A DNA stretch of 64,000 nucleotides. Origin: Shimia isoporae. Lineage in GTDB: Bacteria; Pseudomonadota; Alphaproteobacteria; Rhodobacterales; Rhodobacteraceae. Of this stretch, positions 34,272 to 49,242 are shown piece after piece. Location of the stretch: positions 2,170,001 through 2,234,000 of the forward strand of contig NZ_SMGR01000001.1 of assembly GCF_004346865.1 (NCBI RefSeq). The letters run 5' to 3'. How positions within the stretch are numbered: position 1 is the stretch's first letter; every line of letters starts with the position of its first letter. The notes under the pieces are model-generated. The model ran no database searches and was not told where the DNA came from. It worked only from the letters and a program-made list of their open reading frames with translations. The position numbers and the translations under genes were made by a program.

Positions 34272-34658
34272 TCAAATGAGATCGCGTTCCTCGAACACGC
34301 GACGCGCCACGCGGAAACACTCCAAGCCTTGCGGCACACCGCAATAAATCGCCACCACATGAATGATGGCCCGCACCTCTTCAACAGAGACGCCATTGTT
34401 CAGCGCGCCTTTGAGGTGGGTCTCCCACTCCGCCATTTTTCCCAGAGCGCCAATCATACTGAGGTTCATCATCGACCGTGTCTTTGCATCGATCACGTCA
34501 TCGCCCCAGCCAAAGCCCCAGCACCAGGCGGTCATCGCTTCCTGAAACGGCCGCGTAAAATCATCCGCTGCTGCGAGGTTTTTCTCCACGTACTCCGCGC
34601 CCAAAGTTGCTTTGCGCTGTTCCAACCCAATCAGGAAAAGATCCTCATCAAAACTCAT
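34272..34658 (-). CDS. Carboxymuconolactone decarboxylase-like (AhpD-fold) protein
   Basis: A 128-residue helical protein of the CMD family: LNLSMIGALGKMAEWETHL-like NLSMIGALGKMAEWETHLKG and GVSVEEVRAIIHVVAIYCGVPQG. The CXXC pair of AhpD is absent (one Cys in IYCG), so it is closer to 4-carboxymuconolactone decarboxylase than to a peroxide-reducing AhpD. It is the last gene of the RpiR-headed operon, and its ATG overlaps the aldehyde dehydrogenase stop (ATGA). It might decarboxylate or isomerise a ring-derived acid, but that is inference. Confidence 0.8.
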   Translation of the reverse strand: MSFDEDLFLIGLEQRKATLGAEYVEKNLAAADDFTRPFQEAMTAWCWGFGWGDDVIDAKTRSMMNLSMIGALGKMAEWETHLKGALNNGVSVEEVRAIIHVVAIYCGVPQGLECFRVARRVFEERDLI

Positions 34659-36106
34659 GCCCCGCCTCCCAGCTTGATCGCCACATTTTTGGTCTGCACA
34701 TAATTCCAGAGCGCCTCGCGCCCCTTTTCGCGGCCATAGCCGGATTTTCCATATCCGCCGAACGGCGTCTCGACTCCGCCGGCGTACCATTCGTTCACAA
34801 ACACCTGCCCCGCGCGAACATCCCGTGCCGCACGCATCGCCCTATCGGTGTCGCGCGTGAAAACACCGCCAACAAGGCCATAGTCGGTGCCATTCGCGAT
34901 CTCGACGGCTTCGGCTTCGCTGGCAAACGGCAAGACCGAAAGAACCGGACCAAACACCTCTTGCTGTGCGATTTCCATGTCCCCCGTGACCCCACTCAAA
35001 ACAGTAGGCTCCATGAAGGCGCCGGCGCGATTGAGCGCCCTTCCGCCGGTCACCACGCGTGCGCCTTGCTCCTGAGCACGGCTGACCATGTGCACGGCGC
35101 GGTCTCTCTGGCCTTCGCTCACCATCGCACCCATATTTGCGCCGAATTCCGGGCTCTCCTCCCCGGGCCGCACGATCAGGCCGCTCGCGATTTTTGCGGC
35201 GCGTTCGACCAGTTCATCATGGCGGCTCTCGTGCACGATCACTCTGGACATGGCAGAGCAAACCTGCCCCGCATTGAAGAAAATCCCCCAGCGAATGTCG
35301 GTTTCGAATGCCTCCAGATCCGCGTCTTCATGCACGATCGCCGCTGACTTGCCGCCAAGTTCAAGCACGCAGGGCACGACGTTGGCGGCCGCAGCCGTGG
35401 CAATGGCAATGCCGGTCTGAACAGAGCCGGTGAACACGATCTGGTTCACGTCCGGATGCCCTGCCAAAGCGGCCCCTGCATCGCGCCCTAGGCCGCAAAG
35501 CACGTTCACCGCGCCGTTCGGAAGTCCGACATGCTCGGCCGCTTTCGCAAACCATGCATTCGTCAAAGGTGTCAGTTCGGGCGACTTGATGACGCAAGCG
35601 TTTCCCGTCGCGAGCGCTGCTGACAACGAACGTGCGGTCATCTCCACCGGATAGTTCCAGGGAATGATCTGTGCCGAAACGCCCATCGGCTCGTAAGTGG
35701 TGAAATCAAAATAGCCGGCGCCCAGCGGAATTGACCGGCCTTCCACCGTTTCAGCCTGATTTCCATAGTATTCGAAGTACCGCGCAGCGCCTTCAATTTC
35801 GATCCGGCTTTCCCAGAGCGGCTTGCCCTGCTCCGCCGTAAGGACCGGTGCGATCTCGTCGAGATTCTCCAGCAGATACCGCCCCATCGCCTGCACCATG
35901 CGCCCGCGCTCGACAGGGCGCAAGTCGCGCAAGGCGCCAGACCGATGCACCCGCCTCGCAGCTTGGACAGCTTTGTCGACATCCCCAGCATCCGCCAGTG
36001 CATGTTCAGCTATCTGCTCCGAAGTGGCGGGATCTTGCACCGCGATCCGGCCTGCACCGCCGTCGACCCACGCACCGTCGATAAAATTCTGCCAGTAGCT
36101 TTTCAT
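34655..36106 (-). CDS. NAD(P)-dependent aldehyde dehydrogenase
   Basis: A 483-residue enzyme with every expected landmark: IIPWNYPVEM, FTGSVQTG, the glutamate motif VLELGGKSA, the nucleophile region FFNAGQVCSAMSR with its Cys, and EVFGPVLSV. It resembles betaine-aldehyde and aminoaldehyde dehydrogenases in size and motifs. It overlaps the gene on each side by four bases (ATGA), so it is made with the sulfotransferase-like and CMD-like proteins. Its position after a Rieske oxygenase suggests oxidation of an aldehyde released by ring or methyl-group oxidation. Confidence 0.9.
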   Translation of the reverse strand: MKSYWQNFIDGAWVDGGAGRIAVQDPATSEQIAEHALADAGDVDKAVQAARRVHRSGALRDLRPVERGRMVQAMGRYLLENLDEIAPVLTAEQGKPLWESRIEIEGAARYFEYYGNQAETVEGRSIPLGAGYFDFTTYEPMGVSAQIIPWNYPVEMTARSLSAALATGNACVIKSPELTPLTNAWFAKAAEHVGLPNGAVNVLCGLGRDAGAALAGHPDVNQIVFTGSVQTGIAIATAAAANVVPCVLELGGKSAAIVHEDADLEAFETDIRWGIFFNAGQVCSAMSRVIVHESRHDELVERAAKIASGLIVRPGEESPEFGANMGAMVSEGQRDRAVHMVSRAQEQGARVVTGGRALNRAGAFMEPTVLSGVTGDMEIAQQEVFGPVLSVLPFASEAEAVEIANGTDYGLVGGVFTRDTDRAMRAARDVRAGQVFVNEWYAGGVETPFGGYGKSGYGREKGREALWNYVQTKNVAIKLGGGA

Positions 36107-36855
36107 GCCTTTTCCTCAGGTCTCAGCCGATGCGCAAACATTCGGTCATAGTGTGGTTTCATGCGACGGTGCACCGCGTGCACTCGCTCCGGCAGGTCCG
36201 CGAGCGACACATAGCGTCGCGGCTGCGCAACAAGTCCGGTGGACTTCGCCAAATTCGAGTGGAAAGACCCACCATCCCACCAACTGTGTGCAGAAGGATC
36301 CCCGCCAGCTTCCCAGCTTAGTGCTTCGGGCTTAAATGGGAGCCCGACGGCTGCACAGAACGCCTCGGTCATACCCTCGGGATTTTCAAGCAAATCGTCA
36401 CTGTCGATCACAGGCGGCGGCGATCCATTGAGCGCCCACAACAAATCGAACAGGGCCCGCTGCTCGGGAAACCCAACCTCGCCTTCGTGAAAATCCGGCC
36501 ATTTGTCGGCCATCGAAGTGATGGTCTTTGCCGGATCACGGATCAGAAAAGCATGGGTAAAATGGCCAAGAAACTCGAAGTCCCACATGTGGCTGATGTA
36601 GTGCGGAAAGTCCTTGAGAAAGACGGGGCCATTTTGGGCCAACGCCTGAATGTCAGCCCAGACACTTTCAAGCGTGAGGCCAGGTGTCACAACCTCGCCT
36701 TCCTTGTACCTGTGCCAAAGTGGTTCTTCGCCTTGATACCAAGCCTCTCCAAACGGCTCGTGCAGACACTCCAGATCGCCCCTCTGGCGCATCATCCACT
36801 CAAACGCGGTAGAGGTCGATCTGGGCACAGCCCATAAAGCAACGATTTTATGCAT
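36103..36855 (-). CDS. Sulfotransferase-like P-loop protein
   Basis: A 250-residue protein that starts MHKIVALWAVPRSTSTAFEW; VPRSTSTAF is the PAPS 5'-phosphosulfate-binding loop of the sulfotransferase superfamily. HAFLIRDPAKTITSM matches the 3'-phosphate-binding segment (Arg-Asp-Pro followed by Ser). True sulfotransferases move sulfate from PAPS to a hydroxyl or amine; some relatives have other or unknown roles. It overlaps the racemase-like gene by eight bases and aldehyde dehydrogenase by four. A sulfotransferase within a small-molecule catabolic operon is unexpected. Confidence 0.75.
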   Translation of the reverse strand: MHKIVALWAVPRSTSTAFEWMMRQRGDLECLHEPFGEAWYQGEEPLWHRYKEGEVVTPGLTLESVWADIQALAQNGPVFLKDFPHYISHMWDFEFLGHFTHAFLIRDPAKTITSMADKWPDFHEGEVGFPEQRALFDLLWALNGSPPPVIDSDDLLENPEGMTEAFCAAVGLPFKPEALSWEAGGDPSAHSWWDGGSFHSNLAKSTGLVAQPRRYVSLADLPERVHAVHRRMKPHYDRMFAHRLRPEEKA

Positions 36856-37687
36856 TTAGGCTCTCCAGCAAAGTCCCGCGCGCTATTGTCGGCGCCAGCC
36901 CGAGGCTCTTGAAAACGCGCCAATAAAGCGCGGTGTCATGCCCCACGACCGGCTTGCCAAGTCGCGCTTCCAGCATCCTTGTCAAATGCAGAGGACGCTC
37001 TGGCAATCCATTGGCACCACTGCGAAAATTACACATGCCGTTTATCAGGTAAGCATCTGCTTCAGGCGCCTGTTCGGCCACATAATCAAAGGATTTCGCG
37101 GCAAGATTGCCTTCAAACACCCAACGGCAGTCGTTCACATCTTCTTGGCTGTCAAACCAACCTTGGTCATGAAAATTACCGGCCCAGAGAACGTCAAACC
37201 CCGCTTCTTCAAGAAACCGGACTGTACCCTGCCACCAAGCTGGCCAATGATAGGCGGCATTCAGCGCAACTTTCTCGACATTGAGAGCCCGCAGGGCCTC
37301 CACCATCGCATATCCCGCCATGTGAAAATGAAGGTCGAAGCGTTCTGACAAGGCTTCGCAATGTGCACGAACCCCTTCCACACCGAGGCCGCTGGCATGC
37401 ACCCAATTCGACCCGACTTGCGCCGCCACATCTGCGCCATTTCGCGCACTCAAGTGGCAGAAATCCTCCATCATCGAGAAGTTGGCTTTGCGCTGATCCA
37501 GCCCGTGCACATAGTCCGGCACATGCAGCATCCAGCCGTGCACCCCGACACTGTCGGGCGCCATCCGCAGGAAATCACTTGGCGCAGCATCATAGTCAAA
37601 CGGAGGACAGGTGAACGTCACCTGATGCTGGAACAGTTTGTGCTCCTCGCGCCAGTTTTCCGGCATCATCATGTCCCGCTCACCCAT
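36848..37687 (-). CDS. Asp/Glu racemase-superfamily enzyme (AMDase or maleate-isomerase-like)
   Basis: A 279-residue protein whose C-terminal part (NGMCNFRSG, then MLEARLGKPVVGHDTALYWRVFKSLG) matches the maleate isomerase/arylmalonate decarboxylase branch. Family members use one or two catalytic cysteines. The second is present (Cys219); at the place of the first the sequence reads AAQVGSNWVHASG, with Gly92 rather than Cys. Loss of the first with retention of the second is the pattern of arylmalonate decarboxylase. A decarboxylase, isomerase or hydrolytic role remains possible. The gene overlaps both neighbours by eight bases. Confidence 0.75.
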   Translation of the reverse strand: MGERDMMMPENWREEHKLFQHQVTFTCPPFDYDAAPSDFLRMAPDSVGVHGWMLHVPDYVHGLDQRKANFSMMEDFCHLSARNGADVAAQVGSNWVHASGLGVEGVRAHCEALSERFDLHFHMAGYAMVEALRALNVEKVALNAAYHWPAWWQGTVRFLEEAGFDVLWAGNFHDQGWFDSQEDVNDCRWVFEGNLAAKSFDYVAEQAPEADAYLINGMCNFRSGANGLPERPLHLTRMLEARLGKPVVGHDTALYWRVFKSLGLAPTIARGTLLESLNA

Positions 37688-38771
37688 CCACTGCCTCGCG
37701 CATCCATTGCTGCAACCGCCGGATGGAATGTTCGCTCATCACGCCGCATGCAGGATCCAGCACCAGCGGACCGGGAACATATCCGCGTGATTGCAATCCG
37801 CGCTGAACGGACTCAACCAATTCGATGTCCTCGGCAACGGTGGTTTCCCGATCCTGCACCGCCAACTTGCGAATGACGTCACTTTCTTCACCTTCAACGG
37901 TGTACCAACCGCGCCAGACCGTGCATTGGTCCACCGCCTCAGCCCGCCAGTGATAGGTATTCAGCACGTTGCCCGGATAACACTGGAACGAAAACATCGG
38001 CCAAAGAAACCAGCTCTGATAGTCCCCTGCATGCGGCACGGACATATCGATGGGGTAAGTCATTTTCTCAAGGCTCTGGCACTCGGTCACATGACGCAGG
38101 ACGTACCCTCCACCGGCGTCTGGCTGAATATCGTAGGTTTCCGGCTTAACCACCCCTTCGGCAAAAGTCGGGTGGTTGGTCGGGCAGTGGTAACACTCCG
38201 AATAGTTTTCAACAGAGACCTTCCAGTTGCAGTTTTCGGGGCATTCAACCCACTCCACGGGCGCAAGTTCGCGCACATGGGGCACATATTCCGCAATCTC
38301 AGCCCGAACACCCGGATACCACTCGTCCATCGGAGCAGCATCTTTGTCGAGGTTTACAAACAGGAACCCAAGAAAATCCTCGCAGCGTACTTCGGTCAGA
38401 CACACCTTGGCCCGATCAAACCCCGGTACGGATTTGATATTCGGGCCAGCCCGCAACCCGCCGGTAAGCTCGTAGGTCCACTGGTGATAGGGGCAGACGA
38501 CCACGCGGGTGCTGCCGGTGCCCTCGACCAACTGATGCGCCCGATGCTGGCACACATTGTAGAAAACGCGCACGACCATATCGCGTCCGCGAATGGCAAA
38601 AAGGCTCTCCCCGGCAATCTCGAAAGCGAAATAGGCCCCAACCTCGGGGATTTGGCTGACATGCCCGGCAAATTGCCACGTTCGGGACAGCAAGCCTTGC
38701 TTCTCTGCCTCGTAAACCTCTGGCGCCGTGTAATACCGCGCCTCCAGCGAGCGTGTCAGTGCCTCTGTCAT
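37680..38771 (-). CDS. Rieske oxygenase alpha subunit of the quaternary-amine type
   Basis: A 363-residue ring-hydroxylating oxygenase. Rieske [2Fe-2S] ligands are Cys74, His76, Cys93 and His96 (CQH and CPYH). The mononuclear iron site has His195, His200 and probably Asp315. The bridging residue is Glu192 in ENYSECYHC; carnitine and glycine-betaine oxygenases have Glu here, whereas most arene dioxygenases have Asp. So the substrate is probably a quaternary or N-methylated amine, which would lose a methyl as formaldehyde or be hydroxylated. No reductase gene is nearby; the electron donor must be encoded elsewhere. Overlaps the RpiR gene by four bases. Confidence 0.87.
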   Translation of the reverse strand: MTEALTRSLEARYYTAPEVYEAEKQGLLSRTWQFAGHVSQIPEVGAYFAFEIAGESLFAIRGRDMVVRVFYNVCQHRAHQLVEGTGSTRVVVCPYHQWTYELTGGLRAGPNIKSVPGFDRAKVCLTEVRCEDFLGFLFVNLDKDAAPMDEWYPGVRAEIAEYVPHVRELAPVEWVECPENCNWKVSVENYSECYHCPTNHPTFAEGVVKPETYDIQPDAGGGYVLRHVTECQSLEKMTYPIDMSVPHAGDYQSWFLWPMFSFQCYPGNVLNTYHWRAEAVDQCTVWRGWYTVEGEESDVIRKLAVQDRETTVAEDIELVESVQRGLQSRGYVPGPLVLDPACGVMSEHSIRRLQQWMREAVDG

Positions 38772-39655
38772 GTCGCCTCGTCCTTGTAGATGCCAAGCTG
38801 GTGCCGGCGGGCGTGGAATTTTTCCACCCGCTCAACGATCTCCGGTGTCGCGACCGCGATCACAAAACTGAGCAGGGTTTCAAGCAGTGCGATGGTGCTG
38901 ACCGAACTCGGGAAAAACTGAGGGGTATCTGCTGCGACCACAAACCCGTGGTCCGCCCCGCGAATGATCGGACTGGCAAGGCTGTCGGAGATCCCCACCA
39001 CGGTCATGCCTTGTTCTTTGGCAATCTGTACTGCCTCGACGACCTCGGTCCGATAGGGCTTACAGGTAATGGCAATCAGCACATCGCGGCTGTCCGCCCA
39101 GGCCAGATCGTCGACCGCCGTAGAGCCCGGGCGCGGGATCGCATTGAACTGCGTCATCCCTGTGGAGGCCAAATAGGTAAAGTTTCGCGCGTTGGAATTG
39201 TTCACGCCCACGCCAAGGGTGTAGACGGTGCGCGAATTCCAGATCGCCTCCGCCGCCTCGCGCAGCGCATCTTCAGAAACACCCGCAAAGGTTTCTTCTA
39301 TGTTGCGGATCGCCGCGCCGACCATATCGGCATAAAGCCCGCCCAGCCCTCCGGACTGACGCACTTCCTGCAACCAGCGCGCCCGATCCGGAAATCCGAC
39401 GTGCCCCTCGCGAATCGCCTCCTTGAACGGCTCGCGAAAATCCTCGTACCCCTCAAAGCCAACCTGCCGCGCCATGCGCACAAAGGTATTGGGTTTCACC
39501 TCCGCGAATTCCGCGATTTCGCGCACGGTCGAAACCCCAACAGAATTAGGGTTTTCAAGCACATAGCGCGCAGCTTTTTGCGCCTCGGGCGTGAGGTTGT
39601 CCCACTCCCCGCTCAGGCGCTCCAAAACGGTATTTGATACATCTGTGTCATTCAT
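38768..39655 (-). CDS. RpiR/MurR-family transcriptional regulator
   Basis: A 295-residue regulator: an N-terminal helix-turn-helix (TVREIAEFAEVKPNTFVRMARQ) and a C-terminal SIS sugar-isomerase fold (about residues 115-260, with VYTLGVGVNNSNARNFTYLAS and DVLIAITCKPYRTEVV). SIS domains usually sense phosphosugars, but RpiR proteins in roseobacters also sit with amine catabolism genes. The ATG at 39655 leaves a 68-base divergent promoter; longer frames to 39730 would overlap the flavoprotein gene. It heads the leftward operon and probably controls both directions through the inverted repeat at 39666-39709. Confidence 0.9.
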   Translation of the reverse strand: MNDTDVSNTVLERLSGEWDNLTPEAQKAARYVLENPNSVGVSTVREIAEFAEVKPNTFVRMARQVGFEGYEDFREPFKEAIREGHVGFPDRARWLQEVRQSGGLGGLYADMVGAAIRNIEETFAGVSEDALREAAEAIWNSRTVYTLGVGVNNSNARNFTYLASTGMTQFNAIPRPGSTAVDDLAWADSRDVLIAITCKPYRTEVVEAVQIAKEQGMTVVGISDSLASPIIRGADHGFVVAADTPQFFPSSVSTIALLETLLSFVIAVATPEIVERVEKFHARRHQLGIYKDEAT

Positions 39656-39665
39656 GATTGACGAC

Positions 39666-39709
39666 GGTACAGATGATTGCATAGCTTGCCAAGAGCAAAC
39701 ATCTGTACC
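39666..39709. promoter_or_regulatory. Long inverted repeat between the RpiR and DMGDH-like genes
   Basis: GGTACAGATG (39666-39675) and CATCTGTACC (39700-39709) are perfect inverted copies separated by 24 bases. The centres are 34 bp apart, about three helical turns, so two regulator dimers could bind the same DNA face. A partial copy, ACATCTGTGTC, lies just inside the RpiR coding start (39640-39650). The repeat fills the 68-base divergent promoter. Confidence 0.77.
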
Positions 39710-39723
39710 GAGCGAGTCGTAAA

Positions 39724-42183
39724 ATGGCACAAAAAGATCTCCCCTCTCACGCCCGTGTTGTGATCGTTGGCGGCGGCGTCATGGGTGTCGGACTGGCCTA
39801 TCATCTGGGTCACGAAGGCTGGGGCGCGGACACGGTCCTTCTGGAAAAGGCTGAACTAACGTCCGGATCGACCTGGCATGCCGCAGGTCAGATTACGCAC
39901 TCGACATCGTCCTTCTCGCTTGGCAAATGCGTCGATTACAACATCGATCTCTACTCCGGTGCGCTGGAGCGGGAAACGGGCCAACCCGTGACATGGCACG
40001 GCTGCGGGTCGTTCCGCCTCGCGTACACAGACGACGAAATGGATTGGTTACGACACACACTGGCCGTGGGCCGCAGCCTTGGCTTCAACATTGAATTGGT
40101 CGATCCGGCTTTCGTCGCAACCAAGCACCCTTTCTATAATCTCGAGGGGGTAAAAGGAGCTCTATATACTCCGGATGACGGTCACGTTGACCCGACAAAC
40201 GTGACGATGTCGATGGCCGCCGGCGCCCGTGCAAAGGGTGTACAAATCTTCCGCCACACCCGAGCCACCAAAATAACTCAAGCGCACAATGGTGAATGGA
40301 TCGTGGAAACCGAGCGCGGCACCATCACCTGTGAACATGTGGTCAACGCGGGCGGCACCTATGCGCGTCAAATGGGCGAGTGGTCCGGCCTTCAACTGCC
40401 CATGACCTCAATGACGCACCACTACTTTGTGACAGAACCGGTTCCCGAATTTGCCAATCTCGACCGTGAACTGCCTGTCATTCGCGATGACAAGAAAGTG
40501 TCCGGCTACATCCGCATGGAACAACAACGCGGCCTTATCGGGATCTACGAAAAGGAAAACCCCAATTCGGTCTGGCACGACGAGTGCCCTTGGGAATACG
40601 AAAACTGGCTGTTTGATGCAGACTATGACCGTGTCATGCCGTGGCTTGAGGAAAGCCTCAACCGGATGCCGATTTTCGCCGAACTCGGAATCACGCGCGA
40701 AGTCCACGGCGCCATCAGCCACCCGCCGGACGGCAATCCGCTGGTTGGCCCTGCCCCGGGTGTGCGTAATTACTGGTGCTGCTGCGGCACTCAAATCGGC
40801 ATCGGCTGGGGCCCCGGTCTGACACGAGAACTCGCCCGCTGGATGGTGCACGGTTCGGCTGACATCTCCATGCGCGACTATGACCCTCGCCGCTTCGGCG
40901 ACTACGCCACCAAAGACTGGCAGGTGATCAAGGCACGGGAAGACTACTGCCTCCGTCACGAAATCCCTTTCCCGCATTTCAACCGGCTTGCAGGCAGACC
41001 GGTCAAACCTTCCCCGCTCTATGAGACTTTGAACTCCAAAGGCGCGGTGCACGAAGAAGTCTATGGCCACGAACGCCCCCGCTGGTTCGCGCGCAACGGC
41101 GTCGCACAAGAAGACCACTACGGTTTCGGGCGTACACCGGTGCACGATATGGTCGCTTTGGAATGCAAGGCTGTGCGCGAGGCCGCCGGCATCATGGACA
41201 TCTCGGCTTTCACCAAGGTCGAAGTCACCGGCCCCGATGCCGAGAAGCTTCTCGATTACCTGTGTGCCAATCGCCTGCCGCAAAAGACAGGCGGCATCGC
41301 CCTGACACATATGCTCAACCGCGCGGGTCGGATCGAACTGGAATGCACTGTCGTGAAACTTGCGGACGCGCGGTACTACCTCGTCTGCGCCGCGTTCTTC
41401 GAACAACGCTTGCTCGATCACATCGCGGCCCATCAACACAGCCACAACATCACCACCATCAACCGCTCCAACGACTGGTGCGCCCTTTCCCTGAATGGCC
41501 CCCGCAGCCGGGACATCATGGCCGCCTGTACTGACGCCCCGCTCGACAACGCAAGCTTCCGATGGCTGTCCGCCCAAAAAATTACCCTTGCCGGACATCC
41601 GGTGTGGGCTTTCCGGATGTCCTATGCCGGCGAACTGGGATGGGAACTGCACATGGAACGCGCGGCAACGCTCCCGGTCTACGAAGCCCTTTCCGCCGCT
41701 GGCGATGCCCATGGTCTTACGGACTACGGCAGTTTCACCATGAACGCCCTGCGCATGGAGAAAGGTTTCAAAGGCGCAGGCGAACTGACCAATGAAGTCA
41801 CACTGGCCGAAGCCGATGTTTTGCGGTTTGCCCGCACCGACAAAGACTATCTCGGCAAGGAAAAAACTCTGAACAGCGACGCCATGCCTTGGGTCTGCGC
41901 CTATCTGGAAATCGAGCCAGATGGCGCACATGACGGCCACGGTGGCGAAGCCGTTTTGCTCGACGACACGGTCGTTGGCTCGACCGCGTCGGTTGCTTAC
42001 GGCCATACCGTCGGCAAAATCCTCGCATTCGCCTATCTCAAACCCGCGGCAGCACAGCCCGGCACAAACCTGTCGGTCCTGATAGCGGGCCTGACGCGGA
42101 CCGCCCGCGTTTTGGCCGAGCCGATCTATGATCCCATGTCCACATTGCCGCGCACCGACGCGCAGCCACGCGCGGCCGAATAA
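39724..42183 (+). CDS. Dimethylglycine/sarcosine dehydrogenase-like flavoprotein with GcvT domain
   Basis: An 819-residue fusion. The N-terminal part (1 to about 400) is a DAO-type flavoprotein with VVIVGGGVMGVGLAYHLG and the motif GSTWHAAGQ, where His52 is the usual covalent FAD attachment site. A linker domain follows, then a GcvT-like aminomethyl-transferase domain (about 430-800) with FRMSYAGELGWELHME. Enzymes of this kind oxidise an N-methyl group and pass the one-carbon unit to tetrahydrofolate. Dimethylglycine, sarcosine, N-methylproline or N-methylglutamate are all possible. It begins the rightward transcript from the shared RpiR promoter. Confidence 0.88.
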   Translation: MAQKDLPSHARVVIVGGGVMGVGLAYHLGHEGWGADTVLLEKAELTSGSTWHAAGQITHSTSSFSLGKCVDYNIDLYSGALERETGQPVTWHGCGSFRLAYTDDEMDWLRHTLAVGRSLGFNIELVDPAFVATKHPFYNLEGVKGALYTPDDGHVDPTNVTMSMAAGARAKGVQIFRHTRATKITQAHNGEWIVETERGTITCEHVVNAGGTYARQMGEWSGLQLPMTSMTHHYFVTEPVPEFANLDRELPVIRDDKKVSGYIRMEQQRGLIGIYEKENPNSVWHDECPWEYENWLFDADYDRVMPWLEESLNRMPIFAELGITREVHGAISHPPDGNPLVGPAPGVRNYWCCCGTQIGIGWGPGLTRELARWMVHGSADISMRDYDPRRFGDYATKDWQVIKAREDYCLRHEIPFPHFNRLAGRPVKPSPLYETLNSKGAVHEEVYGHERPRWFARNGVAQEDHYGFGRTPVHDMVALECKAVREAAGIMDISAFTKVEVTGPDAEKLLDYLCANRLPQKTGGIALTHMLNRAGRIELECTVVKLADARYYLVCAAFFEQRLLDHIAAHQHSHNITTINRSNDWCALSLNGPRSRDIMAACTDAPLDNASFRWLSAQKITLAGHPVWAFRMSYAGELGWELHMERAATLPVYEALSAAGDAHGLTDYGSFTMNALRMEKGFKGAGELTNEVTLAEADVLRFARTDKDYLGKEKTLNSDAMPWVCAYLEIEPDGAHDGHGGEAVLLDDTVVGSTASVAYGHTVGKILAFAYLKPAAAQPGTNLSVLIAGLTRTARVLAEPIYDPMSTLPRTDAQPRAAE

Positions 42184-42287
42184 GGAGACGACGTCCAACT
42201 TCTTTTGCAAAAAACAGATTGGAGGTGTCACACTAGGTGCGACAAAGACCGCCCCTCCATTTCGATCCCAACATAGGACCGACCAAG

Positions 42288-43370
42288 ATGACCATACCGA
42301 CCACCATGAACGCCATGATACTCACCGGGCACGGGGACCTGGAAATGTACGAATGGCGCACTGACTGGCCTGTCCCGACTCCGGCTTCAGATCAGGTTCT
42401 GGTGCGTGTTGGCGCCTGCGGTCTCAACAATACCGATGTGAATACGCGCGTGGGCTGGTACTCCAAAGCCATCTCGGGGGCAACGGACGCTGCCACCGAT
42501 GCTACTCCGGACGAAGATGACCCCACATGGGGCGGCGCACCGATCACCTTTCCGAGGATCCAAGGCGCAGACGTTTGCGGCGAAATCGTTGCTGTCGGCG
42601 CTGACATCAGTCCAGATCGCATTGGCGAACGCATCATCACCGACAACTGGCTGCGCGATCCTGACGATCTGCTGAACATGAACAAAACCGGCTACTTCGG
42701 GTCGGAAATGGATGGTGGCTACGCGGAATACACCGTCCTGCCTGCACGCAACGCTCTGTCCGTCAAATCAGCACTCTCTGACGCGGAACTGGCAACCTTT
42801 TCCTGCTCCTATTCAACCGCCGAAGGCATGCTTGAACGGGCCAAGGTCACGGCCGCCGACACCGTCCTCATTCCGGGTGCATCAGGGGGCGTGGGTGGCG
42901 CACTTGTGCAACTGGCAAAACGCCGTGGCGCCCGCGTTGTCGCGCTGGCGTCCGAAGCCAAACACGGCGACGTGGCCGCACTCGGAGCCGACATCGTCCT
43001 GCCGCGCGCGCCGGACAATATCCGCAAAGCGCTGGGAGACGAGAAAATCACAGTGCTCGCCGACGTCGTTGGTGGGCCTAACTGGCCGACGCTAGTGGAT
43101 GTTCTTGAAAGAGGGGGGCGCTTGACCACCTCCGGTGCCATCGCCGGTCCGATGGTCGATCTGGATTTGCGCACGCTCTATCTGCGCGATCTGACTTTCA
43201 CAGGATCCACTATCATTGATCTCGAGGTCACTCCAAACCTGATCCGCTACATTGAGGCCGGCGATATCAAACCCGCACTTGCCGCCACCTATCCGTTGGA
43301 AGAGCTGCGTGACGCGCAGGCTGCCTTCATCGAGAAAAAACACACCGGCAACATCGTGGTCGTACCGTGA
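42288..43370 (+). CDS. Zinc-type alcohol dehydrogenase / quinone oxidoreductase (MDR family)
   Basis: A 360-residue medium-chain dehydrogenase/reductase. The catalytic domain includes GACGLNNTDVNTR and IQGADVCGEIVAVG; the cofactor domain has PGASGGVGGALVQLAKRRGARVVAL, a typical NADP(H) site. The structural-zinc cysteine cluster is missing, which points to the quinone-oxidoreductase side of the family. An insertion (about residues 65-85) rich in Asp, Ala and Thr occurs before the active-site loop. It is not recognisably AcuI (acryloyl-CoA reductase). Its last codons overlap the dddQ-like start (GTGA). Confidence 0.82.
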   Translation: MTIPTTMNAMILTGHGDLEMYEWRTDWPVPTPASDQVLVRVGACGLNNTDVNTRVGWYSKAISGATDAATDATPDEDDPTWGGAPITFPRIQGADVCGEIVAVGADISPDRIGERIITDNWLRDPDDLLNMNKTGYFGSEMDGGYAEYTVLPARNALSVKSALSDAELATFSCSYSTAEGMLERAKVTAADTVLIPGASGGVGGALVQLAKRRGARVVALASEAKHGDVAALGADIVLPRAPDNIRKALGDEKITVLADVVGGPNWPTLVDVLERGGRLTTSGAIAGPMVDLDLRTLYLRDLTFTGSTIIDLEVTPNLIRYIEAGDIKPALAATYPLEELRDAQAAFIEKKHTGNIVVVP

Positions 43371-43963
43371 CACGGCAGGTGTGGGATACGCTTCTTCAGG
43401 AAGTCAGAAAGACACATGAAGCGCATGTGGACCTGCGGTCTTTCTGCGCGTTCCCCACCGACATTATCCCGCAAGACGTGGCGCCATTCCACATTCCGGC
43501 AGCGGACCTATTCACATCAGAAAACGACTTGGCAGACGCGAAGCAACCTGCACTTTGGAACGCCTTGCGATTGGCATCTCCGCATGCACGGTGGCGGGAA
43601 ACCTACAAGGACACGGACATTGGGGACGATTTTATGTCCCGCTTTGGATGCTACTGCATTATCGGTGACGGCGGCGCCTTCTCCAGTCGGCAAATGTGGG
43701 CTTGGATGGTCTACATGCCTGCCGAATTGCCTTACCCATTCCACGAGCACCCCGGCGAGGAAATCTATCTTGTGATCGCCGGATCGGCGACCTTTCACGC
43801 ACACGGAAAACCTGCTCGCACCTGTGCGCCGGGTGACACGGTTTTTCACGCCGCCAACCAACCGCATGCGACCGACACGCACAGTCGCCCATTGTTGGCT
43901 CTGGTCCTGTGGCGCAACGGCTTTGACAGCCCGCCTGTTCTCACTCCGACGGAGACGACATGA
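43367..43963 (+). CDS. dddQ: DddQ-like cupin DMSP lyase
   Basis: A 198-residue single-cupin protein. The metal-site pattern is Tyr123, His126, His128, Glu132, Tyr134 and His167 (YPFHEHPGEEIY and NQPHATDT). With a shift of three or four positions it matches the Tyr120, His125, Glu129, Tyr131, His163 set I recall for characterised DddQ. WRETYKDTDIGDDFMSRFG and PLLALVLWR also fit the DddQ/DddL family, and DddQ proteins are about 190-200 residues long. The reaction would be DMSP to DMS plus acrylate. Start is GTG overlapping the previous stop. The DMSP-lyase-like superfamily also has members of unproven activity, so substrate remains inferred. Confidence 0.78.
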   Translation: MTRQVWDTLLQEVRKTHEAHVDLRSFCAFPTDIIPQDVAPFHIPAADLFTSENDLADAKQPALWNALRLASPHARWRETYKDTDIGDDFMSRFGCYCIIGDGGAFSSRQMWAWMVYMPAELPYPFHEHPGEEIYLVIAGSATFHAHGKPARTCAPGDTVFHAANQPHATDTHSRPLLALVLWRNGFDSPPVLTPTETT

Positions 43964-44364
43964 CTGAATCCACAGATGTTTCCGACCTCATCACAGCCCT
44001 GCCGGAACAGCCCCGCAGCGCGATGCTCAACCTGCGTGCACTCATTCACGCAACAGCAACAGAAACCGGAGTCGCAGTTGAGGAAGCTCTCAAATGGGGA
44101 CAGCCCAGCTTTGCGCCCCCCAAGCGGATCGGCACGCCAATCCGGCTGAACTGGTCTCAGAAAACGCCGGACCGCATCGACCTGCTTGTGCATTGCCAGA
44201 CAACACTGGTCAGTGACTGGCGCGCACTCTTTCCCGAGTTTTCCTACGACGGAAGCCGCGCGCTCCACATCCCGCTGGATCGGGAGATCAGCAAGGACGC
44301 GCTTTCGGTTCTGATCGCCAGTGCGCTGACCTATCGGAAAAAAGCAAAAGCGGGCGAAACATGA
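43960..44364 (+). CDS. DUF1801 domain protein
   Basis: A 134-residue protein of the DUF1801 (YdhG-like) family: SAMLNLRALIHATATETG, then EALKWGQPSFAPPK and a C-terminal positively charged helix. The family has a fold related to bacterial iron-binding and SMUG-like small proteins and no firm function. Its ATG overlaps the dddQ-like stop (ATGA), so it is translated with that gene. It ends the rightward transcript; a convergent gene ends 38 bases further on. Confidence 0.8.
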   Translation: MTESTDVSDLITALPEQPRSAMLNLRALIHATATETGVAVEEALKWGQPSFAPPKRIGTPIRLNWSQKTPDRIDLLVHCQTTLVSDWRALFPEFSYDGSRALHIPLDREISKDALSVLIASALTYRKKAKAGET

Positions 44365-44402
44365 CCTGCGCCGCCCGCTTCCCTGACTTGTCCGACAAGG
44401 GC

Positions 44403-44840
44403 CTACCCCTGCGCCACTTCCGGTTCAGGAAGCGCGACGGCATAGAGAGGATCCTGTGCATCGTTGACCTGCGTCACAACCTGCGGGCACCGATGGCATG
44501 CCGGCGCACCTTCCTGCCGATACCATCGGCAGGTCTTGCGGACCGCGCAAGGCGGCAGGCCGTCGACCGTCGGTTCCAAAGACCGCGCAATGCGGGTGGC
44601 CAATTGGCACGCCCCGTCGGAAAAATGGGTGCATTTGCTGCTCACGCAGGGGGCCGCGAACCGGTAAACCAATGTGGGAGGAACATTACCGGTCGCGTCC
44701 AGCACCGCATCGCTGACCGCAAGCGTGGCATTGAGGTACCTCAACTCCGCGCTGTCACCATCGCGTTCAACGACACCAAGCACCTGCGCCCCGTCCATGT
44801 CCGGTTGGGACGATGGACAGGTCAGAGTGTCATCCGTCAA
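44403..44840 (-). CDS. Cysteine-rich conserved protein, unknown
   Basis: A 145-residue protein with a compact cluster of cysteines in its second half: Cys65, Cys70, Cys78, Cys98, Cys104, Cys115 and Cys118, in the order CVSSKC, GAC, CAVRKTC and ACHRC. The spacing suggests a zinc or iron-sulfur site. I recall similar CRWYRQEG-ACxxCP patterns in uncharacterised bacterial proteins but no function. The N-terminal half is acidic. Its start overlaps the stop of the next gene to the right on the same strand by four bases, so the pair is co-expressed. Confidence 0.62.
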   Translation of the reverse strand: MTDDTLTCPSSQPDMDGAQVLGVVERDGDSAELRYLNATLAVSDAVLDATGNVPPTLVYRFAAPCVSSKCTHFSDGACQLATRIARSLEPTVDGLPPCAVRKTCRWYRQEGAPACHRCPQVVTQVNDAQDPLYAVALPEPEVAQG

Positions 44841-45163
44841 AACAACTCTCGCATAATGATCGGCTCCACCGGGAAAAATCCGGCTGTAACGCCGCCATCA
44901 AAAACGCGCACGCTCGGTCTGGCACCCTCGGCGACAGGCCCCATCATCGACGCAATTTTCTTGGACGCATCCAACATCTGTACCGCATCAAACCGGTCAA
45001 ATACGGGATCGCGCCAAATTAGGCCCACAGTCCCGATGTCGGGGAAAATGCCGATGTCGACACCGGCGCCGAGTTCCTTCATGCGACTGCCCAGCACTTC
45101 ATGCGCCGCCTTTTCGGCGACGGCGGTAAGTTCTTCAACAGAAATGGAATTCGCTCGTTTCAT
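44837..45163 (-). CDS. Hypothetical protein, partner of the cysteine-rich protein
   Basis: A 108-residue protein starting MKRANSISVEELTAVAEKAA, with a helical N-terminus and a beta-rich, Gly-containing C-terminus (GIFPDIGTVGLIWRDPVFDRF, split at IGTVG; GVTAGFFPVEP). No Cys, no signal peptide, no membrane segment. I do not recognise a family. The ATG at 45163 follows GGAGAG; the in-frame ATG at 45175 is less well placed. It leads a two-gene leftward transcript with the cysteine-rich protein. About 145 bases of AT-rich divergent promoter separate it from the enolase-superfamily genes. Confidence 0.6.
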   Translation of the reverse strand: MKRANSISVEELTAVAEKAAHEVLGSRMKELGAGVDIGIFPDIGTVGLIWRDPVFDRFDAVQMLDASKKIASMMGPVAEGARPSVRVFDGGVTAGFFPVEPIIMRELF

Positions 45164-45307
45164 AATACTCTCCAAACAAAAAAACTATAAAAATAAGGCC
45201 TCGCACCAACGTGCGGAAACGGCGCGAAACCAAGCAGAACTTAGCACAAATCGACTTTTTTCTAAAGGTAAGGGTCTCCTCCAGACCGCGCCGAACGAGG
45301 TGCGCGT

Positions 45308-46420
45308 ATGAAAATCACCCGTATCCGAATTTACAAAACACCCTTGCCCTACGTTGACGGAAGCTATGGTTGGGGTGCCGGAAATGCCATCGAAACAGCA
45401 ATCGCCTCAGTGGTTGTGATCGATACCAACGCAGGTCTTCAGGGATGCGGCGAGTTCACGCCTTGTGGCGAAAACTACATGGTGGCCCACTCAGAAGGGG
45501 TTGAGGCGCTTGCTAAACTGGTCGCTCCAAAGCTGCTGGGTGCGGACCCGCGGCAACTGGGGCAGATCGAGCAAATTCTGGACAACACCGTGCAAGGCCA
45601 CGGCTATGCCAAAGCGCCCTTCGATGCCGCCTGTTGGGACATTCTCGGCAAGGCGAGTACCCAACCTGTCTGGATGCTGCTCGGAGGCAAGCTCACGGAG
45701 GGAGCTCCAATGTACCGGGTGGCGCCCCAGAGGTCGCGCGAGGAAACCATCGCCGAACTCGACCGCCACCGGGCCAATGGCTATCGCCAGTTCCAGATCA
45801 AAGTCGGATCTGACTGGGCCACCGATATCGAACGCATCCGCGCCACTGTGCCGCTTTTGAAACCGGGCGAAAAGGCCATGGCCGACGCCAATCAGGGTTG
45901 GCGCGTGGACAATGCCATAAGGGTGGCCCGAGCAACGTGTGATTTGGATTACATTCTTGAGCAGCCGTGCCGCACTTACGAGGAATGTCAGCAGGTTCGC
46001 CGGGTTGCCACTCAGCCGATGAAACTTGATGAATGCCTGACCGGCATGCACGTAGCCCAACGCATCGTCGCAGATCGAGGGGCCGAAGTCTGTTGCCTGA
46101 AACTCTCCAACCTCGGCGGTCTGACCAAAGCCCGCCGCGTGCGCGACTACCTGGTCGAAAACCGCATCCCTGTGGTGGCCGAAGACACCTGGGGCGGCGA
46201 AATTTCGTCCTCGGTGGTGGCCCACTTCGCTGCCTCAACGCCGCCGGAATACCTGCAAAACACAACCGACCTGATGAACTACAACACCCGCTCCACCGGC
46301 ATCGGCGGTCCCGTTGCAAGGGATGGAAAACTCTACGCCCCCGACCTACCGGGTCTTGGCGTCGATCCCGATTTTGATAGCCTCGGCACAGCCGTAGCTA
46401 CATTTGAGACGCCAACGTGA
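45308..46420 (+). CDS. Enolase-superfamily enzyme, MLE subgroup (paralogue 1)
   Basis: A 370-residue mandelate racemase/muconate lactonising family enzyme. Metal ligands Asp193, Glu218 and Asp241 and the two acid-base lysines Lys165 (FQIKVG) and Lys265 (CLKLSNLGG) are all visible. This double-lysine arrangement allows racemisation, epimerisation or dehydration alpha to a carboxylate. It resembles roseobacter hydroxyproline-betaine epimerase (HpbD) and cis-3-hydroxyproline dehydratase-type enzymes, but specificity loops differ. It starts the coupled rightward operon; its stop overlaps the NADAR gene (GTGA). Confidence 0.85.
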   Translation: MKITRIRIYKTPLPYVDGSYGWGAGNAIETAIASVVVIDTNAGLQGCGEFTPCGENYMVAHSEGVEALAKLVAPKLLGADPRQLGQIEQILDNTVQGHGYAKAPFDAACWDILGKASTQPVWMLLGGKLTEGAPMYRVAPQRSREETIAELDRHRANGYRQFQIKVGSDWATDIERIRATVPLLKPGEKAMADANQGWRVDNAIRVARATCDLDYILEQPCRTYEECQQVRRVATQPMKLDECLTGMHVAQRIVADRGAEVCCLKLSNLGGLTKARRVRDYLVENRIPVVAEDTWGGEISSSVVAHFAASTPPEYLQNTTDLMNYNTRSTGIGGPVARDGKLYAPDLPGLGVDPDFDSLGTAVATFETPT

Positions 46421-47019
46421 GTACACCAAAGTACAATCAGCAGTGGGCTATTGACGCCGCTCGCCACCCCAAAACCAAGTTCCTTTTCTTCTGGAGCCAC
46501 AAAGGCCGTGCAGACCAGGCCTCACCGGCCGTGTTCAGCCAATGGTTCCCCGCTGGTTTCTCCCATCGCGGCATTCGATATGACACAGCAGAACATTGGA
46601 TGATGGCGGAGAAAGCCCGCCTGTTTGGCGACACAGCGACCGAAGCCCAAATCCTTGGCGCCAAAGACAACCCCGGTAAAGCCAAAGCGCTCGGGCGTCA
46701 GGTCGCTGACTTCGACGGCACCATTTGGGATCGTGAGTCCTACGGCATCGTCTTGCGCGGCTGCATCCTGAAATTTCGCAAAAACACGGACCTAGGCAGA
46801 TACCTTCAGACCACGGGGAGCAAAATACTCGTCGAAGCAAGCCCGATGGACCCAATTTGGGGTATCGGGCTGGGCAAGGACGATCCGGCAGCCTCCGATC
46901 CCTCCAAATGGCAAGGTGGCAATCTTTTGGGCTTCGCCTTGATGGAGGCACGCGACCGACTCCGCGACGGCGATTTTTCCGATCTTCCAGAATTGGCAGA
47001 GGACACAGAGCCACAATGA
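46417..47019 (+). CDS. NADAR (YbiA-like) domain protein
   Basis: A 200-residue protein with the NADAR pattern throughout: FFWSHKG, FSQWFPAGF, TAEHWMMAEKARLFGD, PGKAKALGRQV, then TTGSKILVEASPMDPIWGIG and GGNLLGFALMEARD. E. coli YbiA is an N-glycosidase acting on reactive riboflavin-pathway intermediates, and NADAR proteins elsewhere act on ADP-ribosylated molecules. It starts with GTG overlapping the first enolase-like gene and ends by overlapping the second (ATGA), so it is embedded between two paralogous catabolic genes. No DarT-like toxin gene is adjacent. Confidence 0.88.
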   Translation: MSTPKYNQQWAIDAARHPKTKFLFFWSHKGRADQASPAVFSQWFPAGFSHRGIRYDTAEHWMMAEKARLFGDTATEAQILGAKDNPGKAKALGRQVADFDGTIWDRESYGIVLRGCILKFRKNTDLGRYLQTTGSKILVEASPMDPIWGIGLGKDDPAASDPSKWQGGNLLGFALMEARDRLRDGDFSDLPELAEDTEPQ

Positions 47020-48131
47020 AAATCACCCGCATCACTGTCTTCCACAAAGACTTGCCGCTCGAGCACCCCTACTGGCTCTCCGGCGGGCGCCTCAAGTTCG
47101 AGGTGCTGGACGCCACATTTGTGCGCATCGACACGGATGCGGGGATCACGGGCTGGGGCGAAGGCACACCGTGGGGGCACACTTATGTGCCAGCCCACGG
47201 GCCCGGCATCCGCGCAGGCATCCAGACAATCGCCCCTTTCCTGACTGGGCTGGACCCGCGCCGCGTGCTCGATGTCGAACGCGCCATGGACCTCGCTCTG
47301 CCCGGCCATCTTTACGCAAAATCCCCGATTGATATGGCCTGCTGGGACATCGCCGGACAGGCCGCAGGCTTGCCAATAGCCGATTTGATGGGCGGTGGAT
47401 CCCGCACGCCCCGCCCGATCGCAAGCTCTGTCGGCGCAAAAACTGTCGACGAAACCCGCGCCGTCATGGATCGCTACCGCCAGCGCGGCTATGTCGCCCA
47501 TTCCGTCAAAATCGGAGGAGACGTAGAACGAGATATCGCGCGTATCCGGGATGTCGAAAGCATCCGGCGCGAGGGCGAAATCGTGCTGTATGATGTAAAC
47601 CGCGGCTGGACGCGACAACAGGCTTTGCGAGTCATGCGGGCAACCGAAGATCTGCACGTGATGTTCGAACAACCCGGCGAAACGCTGGACGACATTGCTG
47701 CTATTCGCCCCCTCCATAGTGCTCCTGTGTCCGTCGACGAATCCCTCGTAACGTTGCAGGACGCCGCCCGCATCGCACGCGATGGGCTGGCTGAGGTATT
47801 TGGCATCAAGCTCAATCGCGTCGGGGGGCTGACAAAGGCCGCCCGCATGCGGGACATAGCACTGGCGCACGGCATCGACATGTTTGTCATGGCGACCGGC
47901 GGATCGGTTCTGGCCGATACAGAAGCCCTGCACCTCGCCGCAACCATCCCGGATCATGCCTGCCACGCGGTCTGGGCCTGCCAGGACATGCTGACCGTCG
48001 ACATCGCGGGCGGGCGCGGCCCCCGCAACCAAGACGGACATTTGCACTTGCCGGAAACGCCGGGCCTTGGGGTCCATCCGGATGAGGAGGCCCTCGGCCC
48101 GCCCGTTGCAACGTACGAGGCCACCGCATGA
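47016..48131 (+). CDS. Enolase-superfamily enzyme, MLE subgroup (paralogue 2)
   Basis: A 371-residue paralogue with the same catalytic layout and numbering: Lys165 (SVKIGG), Asp193 (LYDVNRGW), Glu218, Asp241 (VDESL) and Lys265 (GIKLNRVGG). The sequence around the N-terminal capping domain (LEHPYWLSGGRLKFEV) differs from the other two copies, as expected for a different substrate. The most HpbD- or hydroxyproline-dehydratase-like of the three by eye. The ATG at 47016 overlaps the NADAR stop; the upstream open frame to 46857 is a shadow. Confidence 0.85.
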   Translation: MKITRITVFHKDLPLEHPYWLSGGRLKFEVLDATFVRIDTDAGITGWGEGTPWGHTYVPAHGPGIRAGIQTIAPFLTGLDPRRVLDVERAMDLALPGHLYAKSPIDMACWDIAGQAAGLPIADLMGGGSRTPRPIASSVGAKTVDETRAVMDRYRQRGYVAHSVKIGGDVERDIARIRDVESIRREGEIVLYDVNRGWTRQQALRVMRATEDLHVMFEQPGETLDDIAAIRPLHSAPVSVDESLVTLQDAARIARDGLAEVFGIKLNRVGGLTKAARMRDIALAHGIDMFVMATGGSVLADTEALHLAATIPDHACHAVWACQDMLTVDIAGGRGPRNQDGHLHLPETPGLGVHPDEEALGPPVATYEATA

Positions 48132-49231
48132 AACTCACCCGCGTCTCTGTCTGGCAGGTGCCGCTGACCAGTCACGAAACATACTACATGGCGGACGGAA
48201 AAACCTGCGATACGGTAACAACGACCGTGGTCCGCTTGGACACGGACACGGGGCTCTCCGGTTGGGGCGAAGTCTGCCCGATTCCGCATTATTTGCCCGC
48301 ATATTCCGGCGGTGTGGTCCCTGCCATTCAGGAAATGGTCCCGGTGCTTCTAGGAGCCAGCCCAATTGGTCCGGAAGCCCTGATGGAGCGGCTCAACAAA
48401 CACCTCCTTGGCCACGATTATGCAAAATCCGCAGTCGACACAGCGCTTTGGGACTTAACCGCACAGGCCGCGGGCCTGCCGCTCTATGCGCTGCTTGGTG
48501 GGCGTGCTGTCAAGGACATGCCGCTTTATCATTCCGTCACCTGCATCGCACCCGAAGAAATGGCCCGCATTGCCAAGGACGCCTTTGCGCAGGGCATGCG
48601 CCAGTTTCAGGTCAAACTCGGCGCCGATGCCAACTGGGAAGCCGATGTTGCGCGCCTCATTCAGGTGCGCGAGGCAGTTGGTCAGGGACCGCTGGTCTAT
48701 GGGGATTGGAACTGCGGCGCGGACGCACTGACGGCCACACGGGTCGGGCGCGCGGTGAGCCACCTCGACATCATGCTGGAACAGCCCTGCGCAACCATCG
48801 AAGAATGCGCCCATGTGCGCAAAGCAACGGGCTTGCCGATGAAGCTTGATGAAAGCGCAAGGGACATCGATAGCCTGATCGCCGGCCATCAGGCTGGCTG
48901 CATGGACGCCGCGGCGCTGAAACTTTCAAAAATGGGGGGCTTGTCCGCCATGCGCCGGTGCCGCGATCTTTGTCTGACGCTCGGAACGCAGATGTGCATC
49001 GAAGACACTTGGGGCAGCGACATCACCACTGCCGCGCTTCTGCATCTTGCAGCCAGCACACCGCAGCGGGGGATCATGAACACGTGCGATCTGTCACACT
49101 ATGTTGGCCCACGGCTTGCACCTGACGGTCCAACCCGCAGTCAGGGGCGCATCGCCCCACCCGAAAGTGCGGGTTTGGGCGTCACTCCGGACTCCGCCGC
49201 ACTTGGCCAGCCAACCGCTATTTTCGACTAA
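48128..49231 (+). CDS. Enolase-superfamily enzyme, MLE subgroup (paralogue 3)
   Basis: A 367-residue paralogue: Lys163 (FQVKLG), Asp193 (YGDWN), Glu218 (LEQPC), Asp241 (LDESA) and Lys265 (ALKLSKMGG). Its N-terminal specificity segment (TSHETYYMADGKTCDTV) differs from both others. Overlaps paralogue 2 by four bases (ATGA), so three paralogues are made from one message. Aminotransferase follows 11 bases later. Confidence 0.85.
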   Translation: MKLTRVSVWQVPLTSHETYYMADGKTCDTVTTTVVRLDTDTGLSGWGEVCPIPHYLPAYSGGVVPAIQEMVPVLLGASPIGPEALMERLNKHLLGHDYAKSAVDTALWDLTAQAAGLPLYALLGGRAVKDMPLYHSVTCIAPEEMARIAKDAFAQGMRQFQVKLGADANWEADVARLIQVREAVGQGPLVYGDWNCGADALTATRVGRAVSHLDIMLEQPCATIEECAHVRKATGLPMKLDESARDIDSLIAGHQAGCMDAAALKLSKMGGLSAMRRCRDLCLTLGTQMCIEDTWGSDITTAALLHLAASTPQRGIMNTCDLSHYVGPRLAPDGPTRSQGRIAPPESAGLGVTPDSAALGQPTAIFD

Positions 49232-49242
49232 GGACGCATCCA

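Follow-up and report, generated by a model that had tools for sequence, protein, structure and literature searches.

DddQ is a well-studied marine enzyme that produces dimethyl sulfide (DMS) from dimethylsulfoniopropionate (DMSP), and passages of a review (PMC5395565) give it a Km of 22 mM, report that a dddQ mutant of R. pomeroyi formed 97% less DMS and that dddQ is induced by DMSP, and describe as features of the enzyme a cupin motif 1 with two His, one Glu and two Tyr and a motif 2 with a His. One branch of the enolase superfamily includes, according to passages of PMC5144071, hydroxyproline-betaine epimerase and proline-betaine racemase. Relatives of both are encoded at a single locus of the alphaproteobacterium Shimia isoporae, within a stretch of 64,000 nucleotides (contig NZ_SMGR01000001.1, positions 2,170,001 to 2,234,000; the window), together with a Rieske oxygenase and a flavoprotein resembling dimethylglycine dehydrogenase (DMGDH). 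This modular locus, which occurs in many marine bacteria, probably serves the catabolism of a betaine-type amino-acid osmolyte, N-methylated and probably quaternary, and the membership of DddQ in some of its versions raises the question of the real purpose of that enzyme. Support for a betaine-type substrate comes from the Rieske oxygenase, nearest to carnitine monooxygenase (CntA), from the DMGDH-like enzyme, from a GbdR-like regulator beside the copy in Mesorhizobium and from enolases of the epimerase subgroup. An earlier note on this DNA, made from the letters alone, had proposed an N-methylated ring or betaine compound; the betaine half is supported by these genes, and a ring is not required.

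That note had recognized six leftward genes, overlapping by 4-8 bases, that face a DMGDH-like flavoprotein with a GcvT domain. All the genes and families it named are present, with overlaps of 4, 4, 8, 8 and 4 bases, and rightward the locus extends to 50601, beyond the boundary set there. Its features, numbered from the first letter of the window, are:

34272-34658, minus strand: CMD (PcaC-like) protein, 128 aa (PF02627, 61.7 bits; PcaC model 113.8 bits, below the cut-off of 155.7)
34655-36106, minus strand: aldehyde dehydrogenase (ALDH), 483 aa (PF00171, 514.8 bits; closest NCBIfam model BADH, 409.7 bits, below the cut-off of 668.6)
36103-36855, minus strand: sulfotransferase (Sulfotransfer_5, PF19798, 80.8 bits), 250 aa, forming an accessory module with the next gene
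36848-37687, minus strand: arylmalonate decarboxylase (AMDase)-like protein, 279 aa, of the accessory module (PF17645, 32.7 bits, cut-off 25.9)
37680-38771, minus strand: Rieske oxygenase alpha subunit (Rieske and Ring_hydroxyl_A), with bridging Glu192 (family match; PDB 6y8j)
38768-39655, minus strand: RpiR/MurR-family regulator, 295 aa, starting at M26 of a long frame (PF01418, HTH_6, and PF01380, SIS)
39656-39723, no strand: divergent promoter region with two inverted copies of CATCTGTACC, at 39700-39709 (plus) and 39666-39675 (minus)
39724-42183, plus strand: DMGDH-like FAD enzyme with a GcvT folate domain (DAO, FAO_M and GCV_T), 819 aa (PDB 4pab, DMGDH, E 1.2e-144)
42288-43370, plus strand: zinc/quinone-type alcohol dehydrogenase (ADH; PF08240 and PF00107)
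43367-43963, plus strand: cupin of the DddQ-type DMSP-lyase family (PF16867, 67 bits), overlapping the ADH gene by 4 bases
43960-44364: DUF1801 gene, overlapping the cupin gene by 4 bases
45308-46420, plus strand: enolase-superfamily enzyme 1 (PDB 2rdx, 683 bits; K165 and K265 conserved)
46417-47019: NADAR-domain gene (PF08719), with 4-base overlaps with enolases 1 and 2
47016-48131, plus strand: enolase-superfamily enzyme 2 (PDB 3eez, 775 bits; K164, K264 and W319 conserved)
48128-49231, plus strand: enolase-superfamily enzyme 3 (PDB 4mgg, 280 bits; K163 and K265 conserved)
49243-50601, plus strand: class-III aminotransferase (PF00202; PRK06062 subfamily, 555 bits, above the cut-off of 472)

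The observations concern gene families, synteny, co-occurrence, the conservation of active-site residues and a conserved stretch ahead of RpiR. A sample chosen by the Rieske gene, and independent of the AMDase-like gene, covers 198 genomes, one per genus and spread evenly over the family. An orthologue (E <= 1e-100) is present in 38 of them, leaving 37 loci besides Shimia's own, and counts on these cover the fetched stretches, which are 3.7-20 kb long. Of the 37, 35 have the DMGDH-like gene, in every case diverging from the RpiR and Rieske genes, and the two loci without it (L258 and L261) end at contig ends. RpiR is present in 34 at no less than 45% identity and in another two at 36-37%, CMD in 27, enolase 3, the commonest assignment at the locus, in 26 (at least 45% identity), enolase 2 in 18 and enolase 1 in 9, the ADH in 21 and the ALDH in 19, a cupin of any identity in 12 and a GFA-family gene in 8; 6 loci have both the AMDase-like gene and the sulfotransferase gene. 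Many relatives have, at the position of the aminotransferase, a different, GSA-aminomutase-like class-III enzyme (AT_c11; 23 of 37), and that one of two class-III kinds occupies the same position across loci speaks for the betaine-type reading. The earlier note had taken its six leftward genes as a set; they are together in the window, but a fixed six-gene set was rejected because the AMDase-like and sulfotransferase genes lie in the fetched stretch of only 6 of the 37 loci, and 4 of the 31 other genomes carry an AMDase-like gene elsewhere. The two genes are thus an accessory pair, outside the core of the locus.

The other sample was chosen by the AMDase-like gene, a single scan for which gave 167 encoding stretches, the best 80 of them being analyzed. 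Homologue counts here are minima, since contig ends truncate many of the loci: a Rieske match in 72 of the 80 and a full-length homologue in 67, RpiR in 60 (at least 55% identity), the DMGDH-like gene in 57, CMD in 55, the ADH in 55 and the ALDH in 32 (both at least 55%), and a cupin of any identity in 31. Clustering placed GFA (PF04828) members in 32 of the 80, and in many relatives the GFA gene follows the Rieske gene. Five Silicimonas and Boseongicola loci without a DMGDH orthologue carry in the same arm an FAD enzyme (cluster c26), which in L049, the one tested, comes closest to models of glycine oxidase and N-methyltryptophan oxidase; this replacement, with the two class-III aminotransferase kinds at one position, supports the proposed division of labor. 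To the right of CMD in several of L045, L046, L052 and other Roseovarius loci is a BKACE-type gene (named by eye; cluster c16, 8 loci), enzymes of which type act in carnitine breakdown, and beside L093 and L069 are genes guessed to be TRAP-like from size and order only.

The core is also on four plasmids, in Ruegeria SCSIO 43209, Roseovarius THAF8, Sulfitobacter SK012 and Mesorhizobium 131-2-5. All four copies have the Rieske, DMGDH-like, class-III aminotransferase and CMD genes with an enolase of type 1, 2 or 3, and tblastn found no cupin, AMDase-like, sulfotransferase or GFA gene in the four fetched stretches. The Mesorhizobium copy adjoins the GbdR-like regulator (273.7 bits, cut-off 480), and also has ETF genes and a ferredoxin reductase of Rieske type (309.5 bits with the HcaD model, cut-off 450). 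A fifth plasmid match (Leisingera, 39% identity) lacks a neighborhood of this kind. Next to the Ruegeria core locus (L182, 14276-24694) is a phn C-P lyase operon.

In the Rieske oxygenase the CxH...CxxH center is C74, H76, C93 and H96, and the iron site has Glu192, three residues ahead of His195, with His200 and Asp315; across 68 aligned rows each is kept in 97% or more, so the bridging Glu pointed out in the earlier note holds. CntA itself has this Glu as well. The best PDB match is carnitine monooxygenase 6y8j (E 1.6e-58, residues 12-355, 202 bits), and 3vca, which we take to be the stachydrine demethylase Stc2, gives 133 bits over residues 8-233 only. With CntA as its closest PDB relative, the enzyme might instead cleave C-N bonds as carnitine monooxygenase does, freeing trimethylamine and an aldehyde for the ALDH (C283 and E249 conserved in 33 aligned rows), the gene for which comes directly after the Rieske gene in plasmid copies L183, L184 and L185. 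This is quite unlikely, as identity to CntA/YeaW is about 32%, no CntB-type reductase is alongside in the window, 18 of the 37 loci are without an ALDH (at least 45% identity) in the fetched stretch, and the presence of a DMGDH-like partner in nearly every locus would be left unexplained, as would the enolases and the aminotransferase.

Enolase 1, the NADAR gene, enolase 2 and enolase 3 are joined serially by 4-base overlaps, and the two conserved Lys of each enolase are presumably catalytic. The PDB matches of the enolases include 4mgg, 4e8g and 2pmq/4h2h, and enolases 1, 2 and 3 score 391, 311 and 329 bits with the model for cis-3-hydroxyproline dehydratase. Such matches, the conserved Trp319 of enolase 2 and the members of the branch named at the outset would suit catabolism of proline betaine, which the earlier note had listed, or of hydroxyproline betaine, with the enolases racemizing or epimerizing the betaine and the Rieske and DMGDH-like enzymes demethylating it. 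That substrate keeps a place among the candidates but is doubtful: all three enolases are below the dehydratase cut-off of 500, the Rieske enzyme is nearer to carnitine monooxygenase than to 3vca, and a class-III aminotransferase, which belongs to the core, could do little with an end product that is a cyclic secondary amine. For relatives of 2rdx and 3eez, structures named in the PDB without any specific function, the locus provides a context.

In the betaine-type pathway that we infer, with its substrate, reaction order and all activities including that of the sulfotransferase, the Rieske oxygenase would take off the first N-methyl as formaldehyde, GFA being a formaldehyde-activating family, and the DMGDH-like enzyme would then transfer additional N-methyl groups to tetrahydrofolate. 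Enzymes of the enolase superfamily would epimerize or dehydrate the carbon skeleton beside the carboxylate, the class-III aminotransferase would act on the freed primary amine, and the ALDH would oxidize an aldehyde. RpiR, whose gene comes first in the leftward operon, probably controls the two arms through the divergent promoter. The sulfotransferase and AMDase-like pair would be an optional extension that needs this pathway, and the DddQ-type cupin an optional lyase of it. If the substrate is of this type, the best guess, a tentative one, is an acyclic, hydroxyl-bearing betaine resembling carnitine or isoserine betaine. Homarine and trigonelline, also named in the earlier note, are both marine N-methyl acids, and passages of PMC12817926 have R. 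pomeroyi assimilating homarine quickly; catabolism of either ring is nonetheless very improbable and finds no support here, as the homarine pathway is in print, with Mgd reported in passages of a 2026 paper (PMC13390433) to take part in it, and no obvious pyridinium-ring opener is among the locus enzymes.

Several points weigh against betaine catabolism as the function of the locus. None of its enzymes scores high enough for a named equivalog model, for which reason no reaction step is assigned, and CMD and the ADH are without a clear step. The locus in the window has no dedicated Rieske reductase, none of the genome's three PF00970 matches falling within 34272-50601 (one is about 10 kb to its left, inside the window), and no transporter accompanies the locus throughout. 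Regulators of the RpiR family mostly respond to sugar phosphates, and RpiR and ALDH are present in three of the four plasmid copies, the Ruegeria copy being without both.

The sulfotransferase gene is directly 3′ of the AMDase-like gene, on the same strand, in 80 of 80 loci, with a gap of -5 to 168 bases. Among the 198 genus representatives the AMDase-like gene (E <= 1e-50) is present in 11, all among the 38 with the Rieske gene (hypergeometric p 3.5e-9, or 1.8e-8 without the Shimia genome, relatedness not corrected), and in G137, G146, G203 and G240 it is over 1 Mb from the Rieske gene or on a different contig. Within the genus, 11 of 25 genomes have the Rieske gene at 70% identity or more, and the 6 with an AMDase-like gene (at least 76%) are all inside those 11 (p 0.0026). 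Eight of the 80 loci have no Rieske match in the fetched stretch. Leaving out L113, the stretch of which begins 0.4 kb before the gene, the genomes of the other seven (L047, L055, L074, L076, L086, L093 and L121; the stretch of L074 has only 1.2 kb ahead of the AMDase gene) all carry a Rieske relative elsewhere at 52-78% identity, though three of the seven share its coordinates with G203, G240 and G146 and are not independent of the family survey. As all 11 genomes with the AMDase-like gene carry the Rieske gene and all seven with unlinked loci a relative of it, the pair seems to need the betaine-type pathway even when unlinked, and this uncharacterized pair is now tied to one pathway; this concerns the close homologues, apart from distant AMDase-like ones (21-32% identity) in G048, G057 and G087. 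A function for the pair apart from the Rieske pathway was rejected because of the Rieske relatives elsewhere in those seven genomes. In L076 (7662-11558, a metagenome-assembled genome of Granulosicoccaceae) a BhcC-like relative of D-hydroxyaspartate aldolase (176 bits, cut-off 690), an enolase-3-like, an AMDase-like and a sulfotransferase gene are in a row, and in L239 (G162:C123:16501-31340) the Rieske and sulfotransferase genes are separated by three AMDase-like and two GFA matches in succession.

In the sulfotransferase R12, S13, S15, K81, R106 and S114 are conserved, and of these R12, S13 and S15 with R106 and S114 are, we presume, residues of the nucleotide-binding loops. Its AlphaFold2 (AF2) model has a mean pLDDT of 86.8, and its Foldseek matches are sulfotransferases, with E 4.7e-6 to 3ap3. 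Tyrosylprotein sulfotransferases rank first by E-value, and in the 19 rows with E <= 0.001, for which TM-scores are only 0.40-0.55, the domains of olefin synthase (0.55) and curacin (0.53) have the highest. Judged by the model, the protein has the fold, and with it the loop residues, of a PAPS-dependent sulfotransferase. A paralogue elsewhere in the genome, beside class-IV aminotransferase and dTDP-sugar genes, is uninformative on substrate. The AF2 model of the AMDase-like protein (mean pLDDT 88.4) matches 4ix1, AMDase and maleate isomerase, with E 1.7e-12 to 3dg9 and 3.0e-12 to 4fq5; 4ix1, the nearest solved relative, is a hypothetical protein, and the score with the arylmalonate decarboxylase equivalog NF052327 is 26.6 bits against a cut-off of 225. 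C110 and C219 are conserved, and C219 is, by position only, roughly where Cys188, which we take to be the catalytic Cys of AMDase, should fall, the segment being deleted in 4ix1.

The window cupin matches 5cu1 (E 4.4e-55, 190 bits) and the DddQ structure 4la2 (E 1.5e-30, 110 bits), and its Y123, H126, H128, E132, Y134 and H167, conserved in 31 rows, correspond to the DddQ motif residues by our own assignment of residue to motif. Besides Shimia's, 16 of the 23 cupin loci with at least 107 bits in the family sample are within 1.5 kb of the ADH, DMGDH-like or enolase genes of the locus. Seven are not, and six of these (all save L149) when re-read over 16.6-20 kb had no locus gene above 30% identity other than the cupins. 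The Rieske gene is also present in 16 of the 24 genomes with such a cupin (p 4.3e-8, relatedness not corrected), and of six weaker loci (78-96 bits, L156-L161) L159 has ADH and enolase neighbors and L156 a CMD gene. In Ruegeria arenilitoris (L088) overlaps of 4 bases connect the enolase, cupin, ADH and DMGDH-like genes, which lie opposite a Rieske operon, and the cupin, at 311.6 bits over 192/192 residues to crystallized DddQ (4la2 and 5jso), is by this measure its orthologue. Since that orthologue is tied into the operon, DddQ may have a native role in a betaine-type pathway. The same orthology, with the mutant phenotype and induction by DMSP cited at the outset, could be taken to mean that the locus serves the use of DMSP or a different sulfonium compound, with the cupin as the key enzyme and the rest handling related zwitterions. 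This is unlikely, given that 25 of the 37 Rieske loci (some cut by contig ends) have no cupin in the fetched stretch, that the four plasmid stretches have none, and that the adjoining ADH is not AcuI (37.8 bits, cut-off 440). Both lines of evidence are compatible with DMSP as one substrate of DddQ together with a different partner in the pathway, and for an enzyme whose Km is millimolar the link to the locus makes a native role directly testable. Todd et al. 2011, on DddQ, may show part of the neighborhood.

A joint reading of both optional parts, rather unlikely as a whole, is that the sulfotransferase and AMDase-like enzyme would be a sulfo-activated elimination unit working on a betaine, and that in the same pathway DddQ-type cupins would natively use a nitrogen betaine or derivative, with DMSP as a side or secondary substrate. 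A hydroxyl of the betaine intermediate would be converted to a sulfate ester, and the AMDase-like enzyme would drive elimination, by way of the alpha-proton or decarboxylatively, with sulfate leaving.

RpiR probably starts at residue 26 of its longest frame, because more relatives have a length of 295 aa than any other (24 of 59 in the cluster) and the ATGAATGA start with its ATG is conserved across them; the gap to the DMGDH-like gene is then 68 bp. Directly 5′ of the ATG the alignment of 70 regions, two longer ones being left out, has the consensus CTcGACAggc.TAatcg.ACA.aTgTACCATCGTCAATC (capitals above 80%, small letters above 50%), from which the window's own promoter departs in the left part. 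No palindrome is common to all the aligned pre-RpiR regions, and CATNTGTACC with up to one mismatch occurs 8 times in the window against an expected mean of 7.17, which is no enrichment, and for these reasons no RpiR operator is claimed. The control by RpiR asserted in the earlier note is plausible from the conserved stretch. A third exact copy of CATCTGTACC is at 44975-44984, between the cupin and enolase 1. To the left of the locus are selenide-kinase-like and rhodanese-type genes (named by eye from sequence), and to the right of the aminotransferase are XdhC and molybdopterin enzyme genes.

Each gene family at the locus is known, and no description of their combination was found in the open-access literature as judged by titles, the starts of abstracts and some passages; what appears new is the combination, the modular build, the dependence of the pair on the pathway and the link to DddQ. 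Compared with DddQ the cupin is alike in family and conserved residues, up to orthology in the Ruegeria copy, and differs in its position in a nitrogen-type catabolic operon, where it is optional. The AMDase-like protein shares fold and Pfam family with arylmalonate decarboxylase and maleate isomerase, at about 20% identity to AMDase structures. With the sulfotransferase domains of curacin and olefin synthase the window protein has in common the sulfotransferase fold (TM-scores by query length), but it is stand-alone, 14-16% identical and partnered by the AMDase-like protein; the proposed elimination unit would be a catabolic counterpart of olefin-synthase and retinol-dehydratase logic. The enolases belong by PDB and NCBIfam matches to the subgroup of hydroxyproline-betaine epimerase and cis-3-hydroxyproline dehydratase and keep both Lys, and differ in scoring below the equivalog cut-off and in being three paralogues in one locus. 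With CntA/YeaW the Rieske enzyme shares an alpha subunit with a bridging Glu and a match over nearly the full length, and differs in being linked to DMGDH-like, enolase and aminotransferase genes. The route from glycine betaine through dimethylglycine (GbcA and DMGDH) is like the locus in its logic of a Rieske enzyme followed by DMGDH with GcvT, and in the GbdR-like regulator beside the Mesorhizobium copy. The window Rieske enzyme has 153 bits with the GbcA model against a cut-off of 670, and the DMGDH-like gene is one of nine full-length DMGDH-and-GcvT-type paralogues in the genome, the other eight being 33-36% identical to it; nine such genes in one genome make up a large, mostly unassigned demethylase family. 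To that route the locus adds enzymes for the carbon skeleton.

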